The notes beneath the pieces were generated by a model, which searched no databases, had not been told where the DNA came from, and saw only the letters and a program-made list of their open reading frames with translations. This document shows positions 14,768-25,700 of a stretch of DNA of 35,402 nt, in pieces. Source of the DNA: Saprospiraceae bacterium (GTDB lineage: Bacteria; Bacteroidota; Bacteroidia; Chitinophagales; Saprospiraceae); the NCBI GenBank assembly GCA_013002995.1, contig JABDLO010000222.1:1-35402 (forward strand), read 5' to 3'. Positions within the stretch are counted from its first letter, which is position 1. Every line of letters starts with the position of its first letter. A program made the position numbers and the translations under genes.

Positions 14768-14798
14768 AAAAAAAAGGGCCATCCCGTGAAATGGCCCT
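14768..14798 (-). terminator. Strong Rho-independent terminator, minus strand
   Basis: AGGGCCAT (14798-14791 on the minus strand) pairs with ATGGCCCT (14782-14775) across an 8-base loop, and eight T residues follow on the minus strand (14775-14768). It lies about 240 bases beyond the DAHP synthase stop, so it ends either the trp operon transcript or a separate small transcript. Confidence 0.85.
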
Positions 14799-15041: not shown

Positions 15042-16046
15042 TTAAACGATGACTTCCCGGACTTTTAATATCTTATCAATTGCCTCTGCAGATTGTCGAT
15101 AATCCAAGGTCTGTTGTCCATCTGACAAAGCTTTCTGAGGGCAGCTGTGTACTTCCATGATGATACCATCTGCGCCTGCTGCCACACTCGCAAATGCGAT
15201 TGAATCAACATATTTTCTAACGCCTATTCCATGAGAAGGATCTGCTACTACTGGGAGGTGAGACCGATCTTTAAGAATGGTGATCGCATTGATATCCATG
15301 GTATTTCGGTAAGCACTTTCAAATGATCTAATGCCACGCTCACACAATATGATATCCTCATTTCCATTGGAGAAAATATATTCCGCAGATTGAAGCAATT
15401 CTTCAATCGTACCTGAAATTCCTCGCTTTAAGAGAACTGGTTTATCTACTTTTCCCAGTTCATCTAGTAAATTGAAGTTCTGGCTATTCCTTGCTCCAAC
15501 CTGGAAGATATCTACGTAATCGTACATTTCTTTGATCTGAGATACTTGCATGACCTCGGTGATAATTTTAATGCCTTCTGCACTGGCTATATCATGCCAT
15601 AATTTCAATCCTTCAATTCCCAGCCCTCGAAAGCTGTAAGGAGAACTCCGTGGTTTATAAACACCGCCTCTCATGATGGAAATGTTGCTTTTCTTTAAAT
15701 GGTCAATTGTGCTCTTGATCTGATCTTCATTTTCAATAGAACAGGGACCTGCCATAATCTGAAAATTACCATTTCCGATTTTTAAATCTCCTCCTATGGT
15801 GATCTCTGATTTCCCTACTTTCCATTTGCCTGACACCAGTTTATAAGGATCACTGACCTTGTGAATGTCTTTTACACCTGACAGATGCCCAATTGATCTA
15901 AGGTCAATTGATTTTTTTCCGATACAGACAAAATAACGACCGTATTGAGTGGTCACCTCATTATGAGTAAATCCTAATGTTTCAATTGAAGATTTTATGG
16001 TGCTTTCTGATTCTTCAGAAATATTGTTTTCTAAGTGAATGATCAT
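15042..16046 (-). CDS. aroF: 3-deoxy-7-phosphoheptulonate (DAHP) synthase, type I-beta, with N-terminal regulatory domain
   Basis: This enzyme condenses phosphoenolpyruvate and erythrose 4-phosphate, the first step of the shikimate pathway. The 334 residues divide into an N-terminal ferredoxin-like regulatory domain (about 1-72, containing YGRYFVCIGKK and GVKDIHKVSDPYKLVS), as in the Thermotoga-type enzyme, and a TIM barrel. The barrel shows AGPCSIE (99-105, metal ligand Cys102), KPRSSPYSFRG (131-141), VGARNSQNF, LLKRG and VADPSHGIG. There is no chorismate mutase domain. The start overlaps the trpA stop as ATGA, so it is translated as part of the trp operon and falls under the same attenuator. 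Close relatives are also named aroG or aroA; the symbol is a convention. Confidence 0.92.
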   Translation of the reverse strand: MIIHLENNISEESESTIKSSIETLGFTHNEVTTQYGRYFVCIGKKSIDLRSIGHLSGVKDIHKVSDPYKLVSGKWKVGKSEITIGGDLKIGNGNFQIMAGPCSIENEDQIKSTIDHLKKSNISIMRGGVYKPRSSPYSFRGLGIEGLKLWHDIASAEGIKIITEVMQVSQIKEMYDYVDIFQVGARNSQNFNLLDELGKVDKPVLLKRGISGTIEELLQSAEYIFSNGNEDIILCERGIRSFESAYRNTMDINAITILKDRSHLPVVADPSHGIGVRKYVDSIAFASVAAGADGIIMEVHSCPQKALSDGQQTLDYRQSAEAIDKILKVREVIV

Positions 16047-16840
16047 GGACGGATACTTTTTACAAAATTGTTTATTCGGTCTGACATAGGTTTTTCTGAA
16101 TTAAGTGCTCTGATAAATGCACTTCCTACAATTGCCCCATTGCTATAATTACATGCAATATTAAATGTGTTATTGTTGTGGATTCCAAATCCTATCAGAG
16201 TAGGAGAGGAAAGTTTCATGTTTTTAATGCGAGAAAAGTAAGCTTTCTGCTGTTCTGATATATCTTCACTCTTTCCTGTAATACTAGACTGTGAAACGAC
16301 ATAAATGAAAGCAGAACTCAAACGATCTGCCTGATGGATTCTGTCTTCTGATGTCATTGGAGATATCAGAAAACTGATCGATAAGTTGTATTTTTCAAAT
16401 AGTTGCACATATTCTTTTTCATATATGGGCATGGGTAGATCAGGAATGATCATACCATTTATTCCGGCTGAAGAGGCTTCTTTAAGGAATTTTTCTACCC
16501 CATATTGGAGCAATTGGTTGTAATAACCCATAGCAATGATGGGTACCTGTGTCTTTGACCTTGCCACTTCAACCTGAGAAAATAACAATGATAAATTCAT
16601 CCCGTTCTTCAAGGCAGTTTCACTACTCTGTTGAATGGTAAGCCCATCAGCAAGAGGATCTGAGTAGGGCATTCCTAATTCTATAAGGTCAACACCTGCA
16701 TCACTTAACCCACATATGATATCAGTGGTATCATTTAAAGAAGGATATCCAGCAGTGAAATACACATTAAGGATATTGGATCCTTTTTTTATAATCGTGT
16801 CCCTAATAACATTGGTTGACATGCTAGTTAGCTTTTGCAT
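16043..16840 (-). CDS. trpA: Tryptophan synthase alpha chain
   Basis: The alpha subunit splits indole-3-glycerol phosphate to indole and glyceraldehyde 3-phosphate and passes indole to TrpB. The protein has 265 residues; catalytic E54 and D65 sit in IELGMPYSDPLADG, the expected spacing, and MIIPDLP and FGIHNNNT follow. The annotated ATG at 16840 overlaps trpB by 17 bases; a second ATG at 16822, just after the trpB TAG, would give a protein six residues shorter and is equally credible. The stop overlaps the DAHP synthase start by four bases. Confidence 0.95.
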   Translation of the reverse strand: MQKLTSMSTNVIRDTIIKKGSNILNVYFTAGYPSLNDTTDIICGLSDAGVDLIELGMPYSDPLADGLTIQQSSETALKNGMNLSLLFSQVEVARSKTQVPIIAMGYYNQLLQYGVEKFLKEASSAGINGMIIPDLPMPIYEKEYVQLFEKYNLSISFLISPMTSEDRIHQADRLSSAFIYVVSQSSITGKSEDISEQQKAYFSRIKNMKLSSPTLIGFGIHNNNTFNIACNYSNGAIVGSAFIRALNSEKPMSDRINNFVKSIRP

Positions 16841-18029
16841 TCATATAATTTATAAATGTATTTAAATCTTTATCCCCACGACCTGAAAGGCTTACAACGA
16901 CCTGGTCGGTGGATTTAAGATCCATTCTACCCAGTATGGCAAGTGCGTGAGCAGTCTCGAGGGCAGGTATTATACCTTCCTCTTTACACAATTCCATAAC
17001 AGCAGTCATCGCTTCATCGTCCGTTGCTGCATACACCTTAGCTCTACCACTCTTGATTAGATGTGCATGCATAGGGCCTATTCCGGGATAATCTAGTCCC
17101 GCAGATAGTGAATACGGTTCTACAATCTGTCCTTCATCAGTCTGCATCAGTAATGTTCTGCAACCATGTATGATTCCTTCAGAACCTAGTATAGAAGTTG
17201 CAGCAGAGTGTCCTGAATTGATTCCTTTTCCGGCAGCTTCTGCTAGCACGAGTTTAACATCTTGATTATCAAGGAAATGATAGAATGCACCTGCAGCATT
17301 GCTTCCGCCACCAACACAAGCCACAATATAGTCCGGATAAGGTGATCCTGTCTTTTCTTCCATCTGTTTCATGATCTCTTCAGAAACTACTGATTGGAAT
17401 CGCGTAACCATATCTGGGTATGGATGAGGTCCGATGGCTGACCCTATGATATAATGTGTGTTTTCAGCGTGATTGATCCAATCTCTGATGGCTTCATTGG
17501 TTGCATCTTTCAATGTTTTCGAGCCACTTGTTGCTGGTTCTACTGTTGCACCAAGCATTTTCATTCTTAATACATTAGGAGCTTGTCGTGCAATATCTAC
17601 CTCTCCCATATATACCACACACTCAATACCCATTAATGCACATACAGTAGCAGTTGCCACACCATGCTGACCGGCACCTGTTTCGGCTATGATTCTCTTT
17701 TTACCGAGTTTTTTAGCAAGTAAAATCTGGCCAATGGTATTATTAATCTTATGTGCTCCGGTATGATTGAGATCTTCTCTCTTAAGGTATATATTGGCTC
17801 CGTATTTAGCTGAGAGATTTTTAGCAAGGTAAAGAGGTGATGGTCTTCCTACATAATCTCTGAGTAAATCATCGAACTCCCTTTGAAATGAAGGTTCATT
17901 CATGATGTTGAGATAGACTTCCTGTAATTCAGCCACATTTGCATGAAGCATTTCAGGAATGAATGCTCCGCCAAATTCTCCATAAAATCCATCCTCAGTG
18001 GGGTGGTAAGATGTGATGATCTTTTCCAT
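16824..18029 (-). CDS. trpB: Tryptophan synthase beta chain
   Basis: This PLP enzyme joins indole and serine to give tryptophan. The protein has 401 residues. The PLP lysine is K94 in LNHTGAHKINN. The family blocks AETGAGQHGVATATVCALMG, GSAIGPHPYPDMV, the phosphate-binding GGGSNAAG and the C-terminal SLSGRGDKDL are all intact. It is the TrpB1 type that pairs with TrpA, which follows directly. It starts 7 bases after the trpF stop. Confidence 0.97.
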   Translation of the reverse strand: MEKIITSYHPTEDGFYGEFGGAFIPEMLHANVAELQEVYLNIMNEPSFQREFDDLLRDYVGRPSPLYLAKNLSAKYGANIYLKREDLNHTGAHKINNTIGQILLAKKLGKKRIIAETGAGQHGVATATVCALMGIECVVYMGEVDIARQAPNVLRMKMLGATVEPATSGSKTLKDATNEAIRDWINHAENTHYIIGSAIGPHPYPDMVTRFQSVVSEEIMKQMEEKTGSPYPDYIVACVGGGSNAAGAFYHFLDNQDVKLVLAEAAGKGINSGHSAATSILGSEGIIHGCRTLLMQTDEGQIVEPYSLSAGLDYPGIGPMHAHLIKSGRAKVYAATDDEAMTAVMELCKEEGIIPALETAHALAILGRMDLKSTDQVVVSLSGRGDKDLNTFINYMNAKAN

Positions 18030-18036
18030 AATATTT

Positions 18037-18672
18037 TTAAGTATTATTCAGGTTGGTATTATATAATTCTTGATACTTGCGTACAAATTGGGTAATCAGT
18101 TTTGGGTCTTTTCTTCCCGGCTCAACCTCAAATTTACTATTGATATCAACCCCATGGAATTGCCGGTGGTTTACTTGATATAAAGATGGGCAATCTTCAG
18201 GACCGATACCTCCCGCAAGTAAGAAAGGAGTGGAACCCTGATAATGTTGTAATAATTCCCACTTGAATTTGAGCCCTGAGCCTCCATATTGAGGTGTCTT
18301 TGTATCAAATAAAAAAAGTGCGGCATCTTCATAATCTGCGATATTTCTAAAATCGTCACTTCCATTGACAGAAAAGACTTTTATAACATCCCGGATTTTT
18401 GAGACCTCATACACATATTGAGGTGATTCATTGCCGTGAAGCTGAACATAATCCAGTTGATGCTCCTCTATCTTTTCCTTAACGACCTCAATTTCCTCAT
18501 TGACAAAAACACCGACGTATTTAATCTGAGTGGTATCTGAAGGCATATGCAAAGGAGCCTTGAGGTATCTGCTGGAAGGAGCATAAAAGTTAAAGCCAAT
18601 CATGTCGATGGGCAACTTTACCATTTGGTCGAGGTTATCCTGATATTTTATGCCGCAGACTTTAATCTTCAC
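18037..18672 (-). CDS. trpF: Phosphoribosylanthranilate isomerase
   Basis: This enzyme performs the Amadori rearrangement of N-(5-phosphoribosyl)anthranilate. The protein has 211 residues, a small TIM barrel with the KVCGIK start (general base Cys6), QLHGNES and LLAGGIGPED. The likely catalytic Asp is in FHGVDINSKFE. The start codon is GTG, whose first base is the last base of the trpC stop (TAGTG), so translation is coupled. It is a separate protein here, not fused to TrpC as in enterics. Confidence 0.95.
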   Translation of the reverse strand: MKIKVCGIKYQDNLDQMVKLPIDMIGFNFYAPSSRYLKAPLHMPSDTTQIKYVGVFVNEEIEVVKEKIEEHQLDYVQLHGNESPQYVYEVSKIRDVIKVFSVNGSDDFRNIADYEDAALFLFDTKTPQYGGSGLKFKWELLQHYQGSTPFLLAGGIGPEDCPSLYQVNHRQFHGVDINSKFEVEPGRKDPKLITQFVRKYQELYNTNLNNT

Positions 18673-19463
18673 TATGCTTCTACCTTTAAGGAATCAATTA
18701 ATGATTTGCAAGCTTTGCCCGGGTCAGCGTGTAACATAAATTGTTCTCCAATGAGGAATCCATTGTATCCTACAGTTTTAAGCTTGACAATATCATCGAT
18801 ATTTTTGATCCCACTTTCAGAGATCTTAACCATGTCCTCGGGTAGTTGATCGTATAATCGTACTGAAAAATCTATATCAGTAACAAAGTTTTTCAGGTCT
18901 CTGTTATTGACTCCAATTAAATCTACATGATCTGAAATTTTATCTAACTGCTCCTCGGAGTGCAGTTCCATCAGGACTTCAAGGTTGAGGTCCTTGGCAT
19001 ATTTAGATAGTAATTCAACTTCTTGCTTAGTGAGAATCTCAGCAATTAAAAGAATGGCATCAGCACCTATACTCCTTGCTTCAGTGATCTGGTAAGGATC
19101 TATAATGAAGTCTTTTCTTAATATGGGGCAAAAATTATAGGTCCTTGCAGTGTTGAGGTCTTTATTACTACCTCCAAAAAAATGATTGTCCGTAAGTACA
19201 GAAAGTGCAGACGCACCAGCCTGCATGTATCCAAGGGTAACGGATTCTACATCAGCATATAAGTTGATCTCAGGTTTAGAAGGAGACCGTCTTTTAAATT
19301 CAGCAATGATCCCTGACTTATCTTCTCGCAGGATGTATTCTGATAAAGAAACCGTCTTGCTTTTATAATATATGGATTGTTCAAGAAGTCGAATGGGGTA
19401 GAGTTCCTTATTCTTTTCTACTTCCTTTTTTTTATGAGCTACTATTTTATCAAGTATGTGCAT
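18672..19463 (-). CDS. trpC: Indole-3-glycerol-phosphate synthase
   Basis: This enzyme closes the indole ring from 1-(2-carboxyphenylamino)-1-deoxyribulose 5-phosphate. The protein has 263 residues, a TIM barrel with the N-terminal MHILDKIVAHKKKEVE helix. Catalytic E55 and K57 lie in IAEFKRRSPSKP, followed by LRKDFIID, IGVNNRDLKNF and VKISESGI. It starts 3 bases after the trpD stop and shares one base with the trpF start. Confidence 0.96.
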   Translation of the reverse strand: MHILDKIVAHKKKEVEKNKELYPIRLLEQSIYYKSKTVSLSEYILREDKSGIIAEFKRRSPSKPEINLYADVESVTLGYMQAGASALSVLTDNHFFGGSNKDLNTARTYNFCPILRKDFIIDPYQITEARSIGADAILLIAEILTKQEVELLSKYAKDLNLEVLMELHSEEQLDKISDHVDLIGVNNRDLKNFVTDIDFSVRLYDQLPEDMVKISESGIKNIDDIVKLKTVGYNGFLIGEQFMLHADPGKACKSLIDSLKVEA

Positions 19464-19466
19464 TTC

Positions 19467-20459
19467 TTATTGAGTTGATATTAATGTTGATAATGCATTG
19501 AATGCCTTACCGGAATGAATGGATTCCCTGGCTTCTGATACACAATCTCCAATGGGTTTATTGAAGTCGAAACATTGAATGGCCAGGGCAGAATTAGCAA
19601 CAACAACATCAGTTTGGGCTTGCGTCCCTTCACCTTTGATTACTTTTTTGAAAATCTTAGCTGCTGAATCAACAGTGTCTCCACCATAAATCTCATTAGG
19701 ATTAAGCTGCCTCATATTGAAATAAGAAGGAGTTACCAATAGATCTTCATGGCTTTTGATCAATTTAACCGCACCGGTAAGGGATACTTCATCATATCCA
19801 TCCACTGAGTGAACAATGGTATAGTTCTTTTCAAGATTCTCATGCAAGTACTGGTATAGTCTTGCCAGCTTGAGATTGAAGACGCCCACCAATTGTTGTT
19901 TAGGTTCTGCTGGATTGACCAATGGACCAAGCATATTGAAGAACGTCTTTACTCCCAATTGTCTTCGTATCGGACCGACTCCTTTCAGTGCAGGATGAAA
20001 TAATGGTGCATGAAGAAAACAAATATTGGCAGCATCTATCTGCCTTTTGAGCGCATCGACATCATTGGTAAATTTATAACCCATGTGTTCTAGGACATTG
20101 GAAGATCCACAAGCAGATGAAACTCCATAGTTGCCGTGTTTGGTCACCTGATAACCTGCTCCGGCTACTACAAAAGATGACAATGTGGAAATATTGAATG
20201 TGTTTTTTCCATCTCCACCGGTACCACAAAGATCAATAGTCTCTCTTCCTTCCATATCTACCTTACGGCAAAGGTCTAATAAAGCAGTCCTGAAGCCGTC
20301 TAGTTCATCAACTGAGATGCTTCTCATCAAGTATACGCTGATAAATGCAGCTATCTGAGCTTCATTGTATCGATCTTGTGAAATATTGGTAAGCACCTCT
20401 CTGGCAGTGTCTCTATCTAGTTTTTTATGCTCGAATAATTGATTGAGTATGTCCTTCAT
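19467..20459 (-). CDS. trpD: Anthranilate phosphoribosyltransferase
   Basis: This enzyme transfers phosphoribose from PRPP to anthranilate. The protein has 330 residues; the PRPP-binding motif GTGGDGKNTFN starts at residue 79, and KHGNYGVSSACGSSNVLEHMG and RRQLGVKTFFNMLGPLVNP are intact. It is a stand-alone enzyme, not fused to TrpG. The ATG lies 9 bases after the trpG stop. Confidence 0.97.
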   Translation of the reverse strand: MKDILNQLFEHKKLDRDTAREVLTNISQDRYNEAQIAAFISVYLMRSISVDELDGFRTALLDLCRKVDMEGRETIDLCGTGGDGKNTFNISTLSSFVVAGAGYQVTKHGNYGVSSACGSSNVLEHMGYKFTNDVDALKRQIDAANICFLHAPLFHPALKGVGPIRRQLGVKTFFNMLGPLVNPAEPKQQLVGVFNLKLARLYQYLHENLEKNYTIVHSVDGYDEVSLTGAVKLIKSHEDLLVTPSYFNMRQLNPNEIYGGDTVDSAAKIFKKVIKGEGTQAQTDVVVANSALAIQCFDFNKPIGDCVSEARESIHSGKAFNALSTLISTQ

Positions 20460-20468
20460 TAGAGTATT

Positions 20469-21053
20469 CTAGGTAATGTTTAAAAAATTATTGATCATGG
20501 TTTTACCATCAGGTGTCATGATGGATTCAGGGTGGAATTGAACTCCATATACCTGAAGATCCTTATGCTGTATGGCCATAATTTCACCTGTAGAGTCTTC
20601 AGCAGTTATTTCGAGGCAATCTGGCATTGACTCAGGAACGATTACCCAACTGTGATATCTTCCGGCTTCAAATTCTTTGTCAATGTTGCCAAATATTGGT
20701 GTAGGATTATCAGTCTGAATCATTGTTGTGCTTATTCCATGAAAGACCCTATCCAGGTTTTTTAATTTCCCTCCATAAACCTCTCCGATGGCTTGTAGTC
20801 CCAGGCACACACCGAGTATGATTTTCTTGTCACCATATTGTCGGATGATTTCCTTGAGGTCACCCGCTTCATCAGGAATACCGGGTCCCGGTGAAAGAAT
20901 GAGGTGTGTGTATTCTTCAGGTTTACCATCAGGAATCTCATCATTTCTAAGCACATCTACTTCATATCCGAGAATTTCCTCAACGATGTGTACAAGATTA
21001 TATGTGAAAGAATCGTAATTGTCAATTACCAATATTTTCTTTTGATCGTTCAT
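20469..21053 (-). CDS. trpG: Anthranilate synthase component II (glutamine amidotransferase)
   Basis: This protein supplies ammonia from glutamine to TrpE. It is a 194-residue class I amidotransferase with the triad Cys83 (GVCLGLQAIGE), His174 and Glu176 (VQFHPES), plus DNYDSFTYNL near the start and SPGPGIP. The nucleophile motif reads CLGLQ where CLGHQ is more common; this should not affect the catalytic cysteine. A possible second use in p-aminobenzoate synthesis cannot be excluded. It starts 4 bases after the trpE stop. Confidence 0.95.
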   Translation of the reverse strand: MNDQKKILVIDNYDSFTYNLVHIVEEILGYEVDVLRNDEIPDGKPEEYTHLILSPGPGIPDEAGDLKEIIRQYGDKKIILGVCLGLQAIGEVYGGKLKNLDRVFHGISTTMIQTDNPTPIFGNIDKEFEAGRYHSWVIVPESMPDCLEITAEDSTGEIMAIQHKDLQVYGVQFHPESIMTPDGKTMINNFLNIT

Positions 21054-21057
21054 TTTC

Positions 21058-22440
21058 CTATATATTCTCCGCTCTGATCAGTGCCTGCTTGAGGGCTTGT
21101 AATTTATTGTTTACTTCCTGTAACTCTTTTTCTTCGTCGCTATCCATTACGATACCTGCTCCAGCCTGACAATGAAGTGAACCTGCAATACTCAGAAAAG
21201 AGCGAATCATGATGGCATGATTTAGATTTCCATTAAAATTGACAAATCCTATACCACCTCCATAAAAAGATCGTCTCGTAGGCTCCCAGTCATCAATCAA
21301 TTCCATGGCCCTAAATTTTGGTGCCCCACTTAGTGTGCCCGCAGGAAAGGTATCACCGAATACCTGCCAGGAGCTGACTCCTTCTTTAAGTTTTCCTTTT
21401 ACTACAGACACCAGGTGTATAACATGGCTGAAATACTGTACTTCCTTGTATTTATCTACAGCTACTTCGACTGTGTTTTTACTTAGATCGTTTCTTGCCA
21501 GATCCACCAGCATGATGTGCTCTGCGTTTTCTTTAGGGTCTGCGAGTAGTTTTTGAGATATTTCAAGATCCTCTGTGATATTCCCGGTCCTTTTAAATGT
21601 ACCGGCAATTGGATGTATTTCTGCAATACGTTCTTTTACTACCATTTGTGCTTCAGGTGAAGACCCGAAGATCTTGAAAGTCCCATAGTCATAATAAAAG
21701 AGATAAGGACTAGGGTTGATGGCTCTCAATGCTCTGTATACATTGAATTCATCACCTCTGAATGAATGTGTAAACCTTCTGGAAGGAACCACCTGGAATA
21801 TATCCCCTCGCTTACAATGAGACTTGGCTCTGGTTACAATGTCTTTAAACTCCTGGTCAACCATATTGGATGTTTCAGAGCCATCCAACTTAAATGAATA
21901 GGTCTGATGATCTTGCTTAAAGATGATATCCTGGATGGATTCCATGTTGGACTCCTGTCCATCAGGTATATTCTCTATGATGTATAAGTCATCATAAAAA
22001 TGATCGAATACAATCGTATATCTGAAGAAATCATACCTCACCTCAGGTATCCCATAACCAGGCTTCTGGTCATCAAATACAATGGTCTCAAATTGCTGAA
22101 CAGCATCGAATGTCGTATACCCAAATATTCCACCATACTTCATGCATATGTCATCCCCTTCAACATCAAATGCGTTGAAGTACTGTTCCAATGAGGAGAT
22201 GAGACCATTTTCTTTATTAAGGCCTCCGTTGTTTATCCCCTCAGTGATTATGGTTCCATTTTGAAACTTGAATGTTGATATGGGATCAAAACAAATGAAT
22301 GATAGGGAATCTTCCTTGGAAGAATAATCAGAACTTTCAAGTAATAATATCTCCGGATACACTTCCCTGATCTTAAGAAACAAGCTGACCGGTGTGATTA
22401 GGTCACCCAACAATCTCTTGCTTATACTTTTAACCTTCAT
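21058..22440 (-). CDS. trpE: Anthranilate synthase component I
   Basis: This enzyme converts chorismate and ammonia to anthranilate, the first step committed to tryptophan. The protein has 460 residues. The N-terminal LLES motif (residues 33-36, with the following conserved Ser) marks the tryptophan-binding feedback site. The chorismate-binding half shows GDIFQVVPSRR, SSPEAQMVV, HPIAGTFKRT, EHIMLVDLARNDLSK, GTLSGAPK and CQAGAGIVMDSD. It is the first structural gene of the operon and lies 24 bases after the attenuator hairpin. Confidence 0.97.
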   Translation of the reverse strand: MKVKSISKRLLGDLITPVSLFLKIREVYPEILLLESSDYSSKEDSLSFICFDPISTFKFQNGTIITEGINNGGLNKENGLISSLEQYFNAFDVEGDDICMKYGGIFGYTTFDAVQQFETIVFDDQKPGYGIPEVRYDFFRYTIVFDHFYDDLYIIENIPDGQESNMESIQDIIFKQDHQTYSFKLDGSETSNMVDQEFKDIVTRAKSHCKRGDIFQVVPSRRFTHSFRGDEFNVYRALRAINPSPYLFYYDYGTFKIFGSSPEAQMVVKERIAEIHPIAGTFKRTGNITEDLEISQKLLADPKENAEHIMLVDLARNDLSKNTVEVAVDKYKEVQYFSHVIHLVSVVKGKLKEGVSSWQVFGDTFPAGTLSGAPKFRAMELIDDWEPTRRSFYGGGIGFVNFNGNLNHAIMIRSFLSIAGSLHCQAGAGIVMDSDEEKELQEVNNKLQALKQALIRAENI

Positions 22441-22464: not shown

Positions 22465-22500
22465 AGAAAAAGGCTTGTCGGAACCGACAAGCCTTTTTCT
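22465..22500 (-). terminator. trp attenuator terminator hairpin
   Basis: On the minus strand the 17-base arms at 22500-22484 and 22481-22465 (AGAAAAAGGCTTGTCGG and its exact complement) are separated by two bases. The distal arm ends in a U-rich run (TTTTTCT), so it is an intrinsic terminator. It lies between the leader-peptide stop (22523) and the trpE ATG (22440). The GGCTT of its proximal arm can instead pair with AAGCC at the leader stop, giving an antiterminator. Confidence 0.9.
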
Positions 22501-22522
22501 TTAATTCATACAAATGAAGGGC

Positions 22523-22582
22523 TTAGATTCCAACTGTGAAATCCCGCTTAAGCCACCACCAATTTGTATTTCTAAAAACCAT
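22523..22582 (-). CDS. trpL: trp operon leader peptide
   Basis: The 19-codon frame MVFRNTNWWWLKRDFTVGI has three consecutive Trp codons (TGG TGG TGG, 22561-22553) and ends in TAA. It lies 22 bases upstream of the attenuator hairpin and about 80 bases upstream of trpE. Segment 1 (GGCTTA, 22554-22549, overlapping the last Trp codon) is complementary to segment 2 (TAAGCC, 22525-22520, at the leader stop). Segment 2 can alternatively pair with GGCTT (22493-22489) in segment 3 of the terminator. A ribosome stalled at the Trp codons would cover segment 1, free segment 2, and favour read-through. The peptide is too short for most gene callers. Confidence 0.9.
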   Translation of the reverse strand: MVFRNTNWWWLKRDFTVGI

Positions 22583-22651
22583 TGTTACTAATTCTGTCGC
22601 TAAGAAAAAGCTTTTTTCTCATTTTTTAACAATAGGTGCCAAAAAATATTC

Positions 22652-22744: not shown

Positions 22745-25700
22745 TCACCCTCCAGGAATGGTATCCTTCTTCTCTTTTTTCTTCGCTGAAAGCGGTTTCC
22801 ACTTCTCCAATTTTTTCTTGATGTCTTCAATTTCTTTTCCTGCTTTTTCTTTTAGGATGTCTATGGGTTCAGTAGCAATAGAATCCAGTCCGGTCTTATT
22901 TAATAAGGAGTCAATTGCTTGATTTTGTTTTTTATCTATGATTTTACTTAATGAATCCTTTGCTGCATCTACTTTTTTATCTATGACTTTGGTTATACTG
23001 TCCTGAATATCTTTCTTAATGACATTAATGGTGTCTTTAATTGTGCCTTTAGTAGAATCAATTTGTGAATTTATTTTATCCTCTATTTCCTTCACCTTAT
23101 CTTTTAATTGGTCTTCAGCCATTTCATCCAATCGCTTTTCTGTACTCCCCAGGGGTGTTATCTTAAATGATGGATTCTGAATGTTTCCATTCATGTTGAT
23201 ATTTAGCAACAAATAGTCCCCTTGAGAAATATCCATTCCAAGCCTGGTAGCTTGTTTTTCTATTTCGGAGAGGCCATATTCAAGAGTACCACTGATAACA
23301 TTCTTCTTTAACAGGCTACGTGGAATTTCCAAGAGCAGTTCATAATTCATATTCCTGCCAAGACCATGTTTCCCACCTATGGTTAATGACATGCCCTGTC
23401 CTATGTCAAATTTGTGATCCTTTAGTTCCACCATCCCATCTACTACCTCAAACCAGTTTTTACTGTTCTCAATAGCCCAGTCTGAAATTTTTTCAACACC
23501 AAGTTTATTTCCCAGGCTGGATAATGGTCCGAATCCCTGAATCCTTCCATCTCTTGTCTCAATAAACCCTGAGGCATCCAGCGTATTATAGATGGGAGAG
23601 TAGTTAAGACCTACTTCACTATTCATCATTAGGGTTGCATTAAAGTATCCTGTGATGTAATCTGCAACAGGAGCAAGGTATTTAAATAGAGGAGATGACT
23701 TTACAGCATTCTGAAACCCAATCTGAGATAAGTCAATTTTGAAATCAAATTGATCGTTGCCGTCTGAAAATGTGGAGTATGATCCGGTAGCAACAATCTT
23801 TCCACCAAGTGTGGACGATTGTATCTGCTCAATTTCAAGGGTGCCATTCTTCAGAGATGCAAATCCTATTAGATCTTTTAATTGATAGCTTCCATGATCA
23901 AGCGAAGCTATATTGGCATCGATATTAATATTTACATTTTCAGGAAGTAGCAATCCTTTATTTGAATCTCCATCTACGCTATTTTCTGTTAGTAATGGAG
24001 CTGTATTTATGGATGGTGAATTGATGGTGATATCGCCATTTAAATCACCCTTATTCATAAGATATTGATTTATTCCTGAAAATGACCCTGTTGCATTTAC
24101 TTGCTGGTCACTGATGAAAGCTTGAAATCTCTTAACATTAATTAAATCATCTTCAATCGAGCCCTCCAATATGATATTGTTAATATTGTAAGAAGGGCTT
24201 AAAACTTGTTGAGCATACCAGTTTACATCCATATTTAAACTAGGTATAATAAAGGATGGGTCTTGAGAAGATGCACCTGAAGATGACATGAAATCTTCTG
24301 AATTTACTTTGTTGCTCTTGATGGTCGCAGCTCCTTTTAATGTTGTGCCGGAAAGGTAATTCAGGGGATAATCTAATGATGCATCAATGTTAAAGTCAGA
24401 CCCCTGAAATATCAGTTCCTCTATTCCTACTTCCAACAATTTTGGATCTGCATTTGAACTGAGTTTTTTAATTGCAATAGTGGGAATATCTGTTGATTCA
24501 ATAACTATATTTTCTCCATTAAAATACCCGTCAAATATGACATCTTTCCAATTCTTCTTTCTGATGTCATTCATTGTTCCCTTTAAGGTAAAATCACTGG
24601 TTACTGTACCTTTAAAGTCAGATGTTTCTTCCATAGGGAAGGCATCTTTCCATGTTTGGAGGTTTACATCTGCCATGAGACCCATATCAATAGATTGATT
24701 GCTGATGGGGCCGGTAACGCTTAACCTTCCAGATAATTTACTGTCTCTGGCTTTCATTGAGAATGAAGGGATGTCCATTTCGAGGTTCTCATAATTTACT
24801 CCTGAAGCCTTGATACTCGCTGAAGTCGTGATTTCCTGGATGGTAGTTGAAAGCAGTGGGTATTTCACACTTCCATTCATTACATCAAGCTTAATGCTCA
24901 CTGAAGGCATAGAAGACTCGTCATCTGCAAGAAGTCCTGTAATTGACGCCTCAATTGCACCCTCACCAGTTATCTGAGCATCACGATAATCCTGAGAATA
25001 GGCATATGGGATAAGAGAAAATATTTCTTTAAAATCAGCATCCGGTGCCAGGAAATCTAAATTCATTTCAGTTCCGCCGTCCTGAAGTTGAATGACTCCA
25101 TCCATATTGAAAGGCAAAGCATTAAGGATTATCTCATTTTCTCTGAAGGTGTATTTATTTTCTTGCATAGCAACCTCAATGATTGCATCTGCACTAACAC
25201 GAGCATTTTTCAACATCGGAATGCCAGAACTTGTCACTGTCAAGTCAGGTGTTGTTGTCTTTGTATTTAAATCAAATAGACTTTCGGTAAATCTGCCGCT
25301 ACCAGTATGATTGATGTCATTTATATATAGAGCAATATTGTTAAATTCATTATTGTACTTCAGATTACTTTCAGTAACTGAATATTTTTCAAGCTCTACA
25401 GTGTATTCACTTGATTCATTTCCTTCTTTAAAGATTAAATAGTTGTTATTCAGGTTGTTATCGACTTTCATGTCGAGTATTGCTTTATCAATACTGAATC
25501 CTTTGATAAGCAGGGGAGTAGACTTCTTAATAATTGAAGGTATTGAAACTGTAAAGTCAATTGTTTCAGAAAATGCAAGTGTGTCTCCTTCAAATTCATT
25601 TATACCAATGACAGATAGTTCATCTATTTTAATTGAAGCATCTGGAAAAGACCTAAAAAAAGATAGACCGATATCTGAGAATTCAACTCGTGCATTGACT

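Follow-up and report, generated by a model that had tools for sequence, protein, structure and literature searches.

A probable ribosome-mediated attenuator of the tryptophan operon in a Saprospiraceae bacterium, with a predicted antiterminator that pairs with the terminator loop and descending arm

The trp operon encoded in a 35,402-nucleotide stretch of DNA from a Saprospiraceae bacterium (hereafter, the window) is very probably controlled by a ribosome-mediated transcription attenuator. The initial annotation of this DNA had proposed such a mechanism, and it is upheld in related genomes, where both its Trp codons and its mutually exclusive helices are conserved and covary. The anatomy, conservation, covariation and folding snapshots of the element were computed; from these we infer how stalling, termination and the order of events would proceed in the cell.

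The element begins with a short leader ORF in which several codons for the regulated amino acid stand in a row. This ORF has 19 sense codons, including three consecutive Trp codons at the positions first reported, and ends with the stop codon TAA (22525-22523, minus strand). The leader and the first of the alternative hairpins, referred to as 1:2, comprise the following features:

22523 to 22582, minus strand: leader peptide ORF (trpL), MVFRNTNWWWLKRDFTVGI and stop codon, from the sequence and from a Trp-run leader at the equivalent place in relatives
22553 to 22561, minus strand: three Trp codons, TGG TGG TGG, the putative sensor, with letters kept in the alignment of relatives
22562 to 22569, minus strand: outer arm of the 1:2 hairpin, 5′ side, AUACAAAU, predicted by folding to pair with 22515-22508
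22508 to 22515, minus strand: outer arm of the 1:2 hairpin, 3′ side, AUUUGUAU, from folding
22549 to 22554, minus strand: segment 1, GGCUUA, pairing with 22525-22520, from folding and sequence
22537 to 22544, minus strand: inner hairpin of 1:2, 5′ arm, predicted by folding to pair with 22532-22525

The GGCTTA/TAAGCC pairing with which the 1:2 hairpin had originally been drawn is found where it was placed, as is a further AAGCC/GGCTT match. Folding adds to the hairpin an outer helix (22569-22562/22515-22508) and an inner hairpin (22544-22537/22532-22525) that had been missed. The attenuator element folds at -43.7 kcal/mol (z -5.8), and none of 200 shuffled sequences was equally stable. When both strands were scanned, the combination of a Trp-run leader and a terminator was found only once in the window.

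Downstream of the leader are the terminator and the strands of a predicted antiterminator:

22465 to 22500, minus strand: intrinsic terminator hairpin, 16 bp, from folding
22526 to 22534, minus strand: segment 2A, codons 17-19 (GUU GGA AUC), 5′ strand of antiterminator helix A, from folding and from covariation in relatives
22520 to 22525, minus strand: segment 2B, UAAGCC including the leader stop codon, 5′ strand of helix B, from folding
22488 to 22493, minus strand: segment 3B, GGCUUG, 3′ strand of helix B, within the ascending arm of the terminator, from folding
22477 to 22485, minus strand: segment 3A, 3′ strand of helix A, from folding

The intrinsic terminator, located between the leader and the first structural gene, has arms 22500-22485 and 22480-22465 and a GUUC loop (22484-22481); its stem comprises 16 perfect pairs, rather than the 17 first described, at -24.4 kcal/mol. 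Its five U sit within the 3′ arm, paired to five A, and because the U run belongs to the stem, the hairpin is absent from a consensus terminator scan. The predicted antiterminator has 15 pairs, namely those of helix A (22534-22526:22485-22477) and of helix B (22525-22520:22493-22488), with a 2-base bulge between them. Helix A thus contributes the nine of the 15 pairs that are made with the terminator loop and descending arm; its 3′ strand is the top base of the ascending arm, the entire loop and the first four bases of the descending arm. The AAGCC:GGCTT pairing originally taken to be the antiterminator survives as part of helix B, but makes up less than half of the structure, and a TTCAT/ATGAA helix suggested to be nested in it is replaced in the predicted fold by other small nested pairs. 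The 5′ strand of the antiterminator corresponds exactly to codons 17-19 plus six further bases, beginning with the stop codon; a ribosome at the stop codon would therefore cover this strand. The duplex formed with the window's own segment 2 has an energy of -21.0 kcal/mol, versus a mean of -13.1 kcal/mol with the segment 2 of other loci.

In the proposed mechanism, when Trp-tRNA is ample the ribosome would read the three Trp codons and reach the stop codon, within segment 2. There it would cover 22534-22520, and the terminator would form. If no ribosome were present, the large 1:2 hairpin, with its outer, middle and inner helices, would sequester segment 2, and the terminator would also form. 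A ribosome stalled on the Trp codons, by contrast, would block the 1:2 hairpin and leave segment 2 free. Helix B would be the first to form, as the ascending arm emerges; helix A would then capture the loop together with the start of the descending arm, and RNA polymerase would pass the U run and transcribe the operon.

We examined these states in folding snapshots of the RNA exposed at successive points. With a stalled ribosome, helix B is formed by the time the exposed end reaches 22486, and helix A by 22477. At 22477 or 22475, the values for helices A and B are 0.94-1.00 and 0.97-0.98, respectively; at 22473, they are 0.39 and 0.40 if the RNA is free from 22546, and 1.00 and 0.98 if it is free from 22542 or 22538. 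That is, both helices persist to 22475-22473, depending on the reach of the ribosome, and the terminator is favored from 22471-22469. A ribosome at the stop codon leads to the terminator in these snapshots, while with no ribosome the terminator forms alongside the 1:2 hairpin (0.92). At equilibrium with a stalled ribosome, the energy of the finished terminator is -33.4 kcal/mol, versus -19.9 kcal/mol for the antiterminator. Because the terminator prevails at equilibrium, the attenuation reading requires co-transcriptional kinetics. Some 10 nucleotides of RNA remain inside RNA polymerase, and for this reason the antiterminator would be the favored state while the polymerase is on the U run; it is on this preference that antitermination would rest.

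To be counted as conserved, an element had to have an ORF of 6-60 codons with WW or WxW, followed 10-110 nt later by a hairpin with a T-rich tail, no more than 400 nt from trpE. By this rule, a leader and terminator precede trpE in 101 of 108 usable loci from the family and order of the window, the window included; the Trp codons and the hairpin are thus kept in the comparison of relatives that the initial annotation had called for. The same holds for 59 of 63 loci in a class set drawn nearly all from other families, which includes two loci outside the class (L169 and L173), and for 14 of 26 loci from other classes, i.e., for 174 of 197 real loci in sum. The reverse complements of all three sets yielded no leader with terminator, and neither did shuffled controls (0/540 for the relatives, 0/315 for the class set and 0/130 for the other classes; 0/985 in total). 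The relatives set was based on 110 loci, hand-picked as long and strong TrpE matches from 190 genomes with a match; two of them were too short, and the set omits a partial match in G075 as well as weaker PabB-like matches. Among its seven misses, L073 has its leader farther away, and L061 has a leader with no accepted hairpin. Three loci from other classes (L182, L201 and L202) have a WWW leader before trpE and no intrinsic terminator by the rule, perhaps reflecting another mode of control. These counts bear on the idea that the hairpin merely ends an upstream transcript and that the Trp-rich ORF arose by chance. A gene on the same strand does end upstream, at 22745, but the contrast between real and control loci, together with the covariation of leader and terminator described below, reduces the probability of this explanation almost to nil.

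Tandem attenuators were also observed upstream of trpE: L097 (G096) has three Trp-run leaders, each with a terminator, and L100 (G071) has two.

Covariation of the alternative helices was assessed with a swap test, in which the pairing of each locus's own segment 2 with its own partner is compared with that of the segment 2 of other loci. Among the relatives (105 leader units from 102 loci; eight loci were omitted, two of them cut short and the others lacking a leader or an acceptable terminator), segment 2 pairs with the terminator loop plus 6 nt of the 3′ arm at -9.60 kcal/mol, versus -6.61 kcal/mol after swapping (z -14.2, 0/5000). With the ascending (5′) arm alone, z is only -1.2 (616/5000). 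The value is -16.3 with both partners and -17.1 for segment 1 with segment 2, and two negative controls gave -0.6 and -1.4. In the class set (n=59), the z-scores are -6.6 for the loop and 3′ arm, -5.8 for the 5′ arm, -10.9 for both and -14.1 for 1:2 (controls, +1.0 and +1.8); in the other classes (n=14), they are -3.5, -4.3, -4.8 and -5.1, respectively (controls, 0.0 and +0.6). For these two sets, eight loci of or near the window's family had been removed, along with units lacking a usable terminator. From these scores it follows that, in the relatives of the window, it is the pairing with the loop and descending arm that varies and covaries.

This result bears directly on the classical enteric layout, in which the antiterminator would involve no part of the terminator other than its ascending arm (AAGCC:GGCUU). 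Helix B is present in the window, and covariation between segment 2 and the ascending arm is seen in the class set and in the other classes, so that the phylum does include such layouts. In the window and its relatives, however, it is the loop and descending arm that covary, and from the score for the ascending arm alone we rejected this pairing as the whole antiterminator among the relatives. We therefore regard the enteric layout as unlikely for the window, though less so than the other alternatives considered here. Among the relatives, helix A and the 1:2 hairpin covary, but the ascending-arm pairing by itself, one of those in which the initial annotation had proposed to look for compensatory changes, does not. 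In several more distant loci (e.g., L185, L189 and L193), the duplex is made entirely with the ascending arm, and thus two antiterminator layouts seem to exist in the phylum.

The layout with helices A and B was also examined in a MAFFT alignment made without structure (A1), which includes 75 of 98 prepared sequences. Five tandem units and two irregular loci (L016 and L023) were excluded in the preparation, and the other 23 sequences, with divergent terminators or from other families, were removed by eye, a selection that favors the alignment; the swap tests retained them. In A1, the five central pairs of helix A are intact in 86.2% of cells, each pair showing changes in both of its strands, and the pairs of helix B in 51-68%; the whole structure is 71.5% formed, versus 32-42% for slid versions. 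The number of pairs with double changes is not above that in shuffles (13 versus 11.1, with 71/500 as high), but the number of cells with double changes is (86 versus 32.0), as are the pair types and the covariation score. The pairs to the loop columns (169-171) are not explicable by the terminator stem. The terminator is paired in 92.3%, the middle part of 1:2 in 54% and the outer 1:2 helices in 36-40% (in the register of L022); in A1, helix A of the window itself is misplaced by one column. Taken together with the swap tests, these data demonstrate that mutually exclusive antiterminator and anti-antiterminator structures are conserved by covariation.

The terminator arms GGCUUGUC/GACAAGCC (22493-22472 in the window) keep their letters in both Saprospiraceae-type and Flavobacteriaceae-type loci, and in the alignment of relatives this conservation exceeds what pairing requires. 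One explanation may be that the sequence of segment 3 has to resemble that of segment 1, itself dictated by the Trp codons (GGC follows in both). The exact hairpin is found once in the genome of the window, and in 4 of 40 genomes searched. In G004, a second exact copy (L211; contig C33, 49879-49901) lies about 9.5 kb from trpE.

Genes in the operon downstream of the terminator, and a hairpin that follows them, are as follows:

21058 to 22440, minus strand: trpE, best family TIGR00564, below curated cut-off
20469 to 21053, minus strand: trpG, family match
19467 to 20459, minus strand: trpD, family match
18672 to 19463, minus strand: trpC, family match
18037 to 18672, minus strand: trpF, family match below curated cut-off
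16824 to 18029, minus strand: trpB, family match
16043 to 16840, minus strand: trpA, family match
15042 to 16046, minus strand: DAHP synthase (3-deoxy-7-phosphoheptulonate synthase), NF006421 and TIGR01361 above cut-off
14775 to 14798, minus strand: terminator-like hairpin past the DAHP synthase gene, a possible operon end, from the consensus scan only

The gene order, trpE-G-D-C-F-B-A and then DAHP synthase, agrees with the seven trp genes and DAHP synthase gene initially listed. The names TrpE and TrpF rest on context and on top matches that fall short of the curated NCBIfam cut-offs, while the other six proteins exceed at least one cut-off; the nearest named relatives of TrpE are mostly Saprospiraceae records. 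Because the DAHP synthase gene closes the trp run, Trp control would extend to the first step of the aromatic pathway.

In Bacillus and in enterics, trp genes are controlled by TRAP-like or repressor systems, and the leader ORF of the window might in principle be incidental to such a protein. Neither TrpR (Trp_repressor, PF01371) nor TRAP (PF02081) has a family match in the window's genome, and the same searches were positive in control genomes; because this genome is a draft of 548 contigs (99% complete), the absence is incomplete evidence. In addition, the Trp codons are kept in letters across the relatives, which argues against control by a protein only. We thus consider a leader-RNA-binding protein or a repressor to be a very improbable alternative to attenuation by a translating ribosome.

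The attenuator of the window has several features in common with that of the E. coli trp operon as generally described, namely a leader peptide with Trp codons, the 1:2, 2:3 and 3:4 alternatives and an intrinsic terminator. In E. coli, segment 2 pairs with the ascending arm; in the window, by contrast, it overlaps the last leader codons along with the stop codon, and its predicted partners include the loop and descending arm of the terminator. The two also differ in that no TrpR partner was found in the window's genome.

At its curated cut-offs, Rfam has no match in the window, so the element is unannotated in this sense, as had been anticipated. The accompanying view that covariance models are mainly proteobacterial nevertheless overlooks RF01692 (Bacteroid-trp), a Trp-leader model from Bacteroidota that matches just under its gathering cut-off (44.7 versus 49 bits; E 3.6e-4 in a 451-base search). 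Because the alignment is full-length (model positions 1-131 of 131), this kind of element is already known; the motif was presented by Weinberg et al. 2010 (PMC2864571). Like RF01692, the window element lies before trp genes and has a Trp-run leader, a 1:2 hairpin with the Trp codons in its 5′ arm, and GGCUUGUC at the 3′ end. The model ends at that motif, before the terminator loop and 3′ arm, and therefore holds neither terminator nor antiterminator; the 3′ strand of helix A falls past its end. RF01692 scores above cut-off in only 1 of 20 tested loci of the window's relatives and in 4 of 14 loci of other families. In a scan of 148 genomes of the phylum with strict filters (E ≤ 0.001), 13 match, 11 of them above cut-off, and all 13 belong to one other family. 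Thr_leader, GibS (sRNA), Phe_leader and other weak Rfam matches were rejected, being far below cut-offs, and those checked rest on the terminator hairpin; Trp_leader is not among the 24 matches listed for the element.

In Flavobacterium psychrophilum, leader-peptide attenuation has been proposed for amino-acid operons, and Bacteroid-trp has been noted before the trp operon (PMC9723704, PMC6414381). This species belongs to a different family, and the relevant passages of these papers give no antiterminator structure. A search of the open-licence literature found no paper on trp attenuation in trp operons of Bacteroidetes or Bacteroidota beyond one unrelated. The survey of attenuation by Lopatovskaya et al. 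2010 may cover Bacteroidetes.

The position of promoters relative to the leaders suggests how translation may begin. Of 181 trp leaders, 99 have the exact -7 box, TANNTTTG, at a distance of 20-70 nt upstream of the first Trp codon, compared with 8 and 3 that have it in the next two 50-nt stretches upstream and 1 between terminator and trpE. In 47 of these 99 leaders (e.g., L007, L014, L095, L099 and L105), the first in-frame ATG lies 1-8 nt past the box, with a mode of 4, the spacing in L014, L099 and L105; the distance is 15-32 nt in 46 and 9-10 nt in five, and one has no such ATG. Counting every in-frame ATG, those located 4-8 nt after the box number 47 in frame versus 0 out of frame. The box is reported at -12 to -5 in F. 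psychrophilum (PMC9723704), so that a spacing of 4 nt means that the transcript starts at the ATG itself. Leaderless mRNAs represent 5.5% in that species (PMC9723704), and UTRs shorter than 10 nt about 3.7% in B. thetaiotaomicron (PMC7366714). These patterns suggest that 47 of the 99 boxed leaders are leaderless or nearly so. The leader of the window is not among them, and has one weak, better-placed candidate box:

22600 to 22607, minus strand: weak candidate -7 box, TTTCTTAG, two mismatches to TANNTTTG, 17 nt before the leader ATG, from its matrix score

No clear promoter box was found before this leader: the best matrix score is -1.2 (TGAATTTG, 69 nt before the ATG) and TTTCTTAG scores -4.4, while true sites score 9.0 at their 5% quantile. 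A leaderless trpL is described in Sinorhizobium meliloti (PMC7298713), whose leader RNA starts at the ATG, as appears to be the case for many leaders of Bacteroidota; it differs in its phylum and its 14-residue peptide.

The chances seem to us evenly balanced that Trp attenuation of this design is old and widespread in Bacteroidota, with an antiterminator that captures both the loop and the descending arm of the terminator and takes its other strand from the final codons of the leader, and that about half of the leaders with a recognizable promoter are translated from leaderless or nearly leaderless mRNA, which would let the ribosome load once the RNA emerges. The curated Rfam model misses the family of the window almost wholly, and lacks both of the states that decide the outcome; with the alternative helices defined, what was a sequence-level motif becomes a testable switch. 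The findings also suggest that, in this phylum, Trp control may usually operate without TrpR or TRAP. Finally, where Shine-Dalgarno sequences are not used, by what means a ribosome can load onto the leader quickly enough for coupling with RNA polymerase becomes a testable question.
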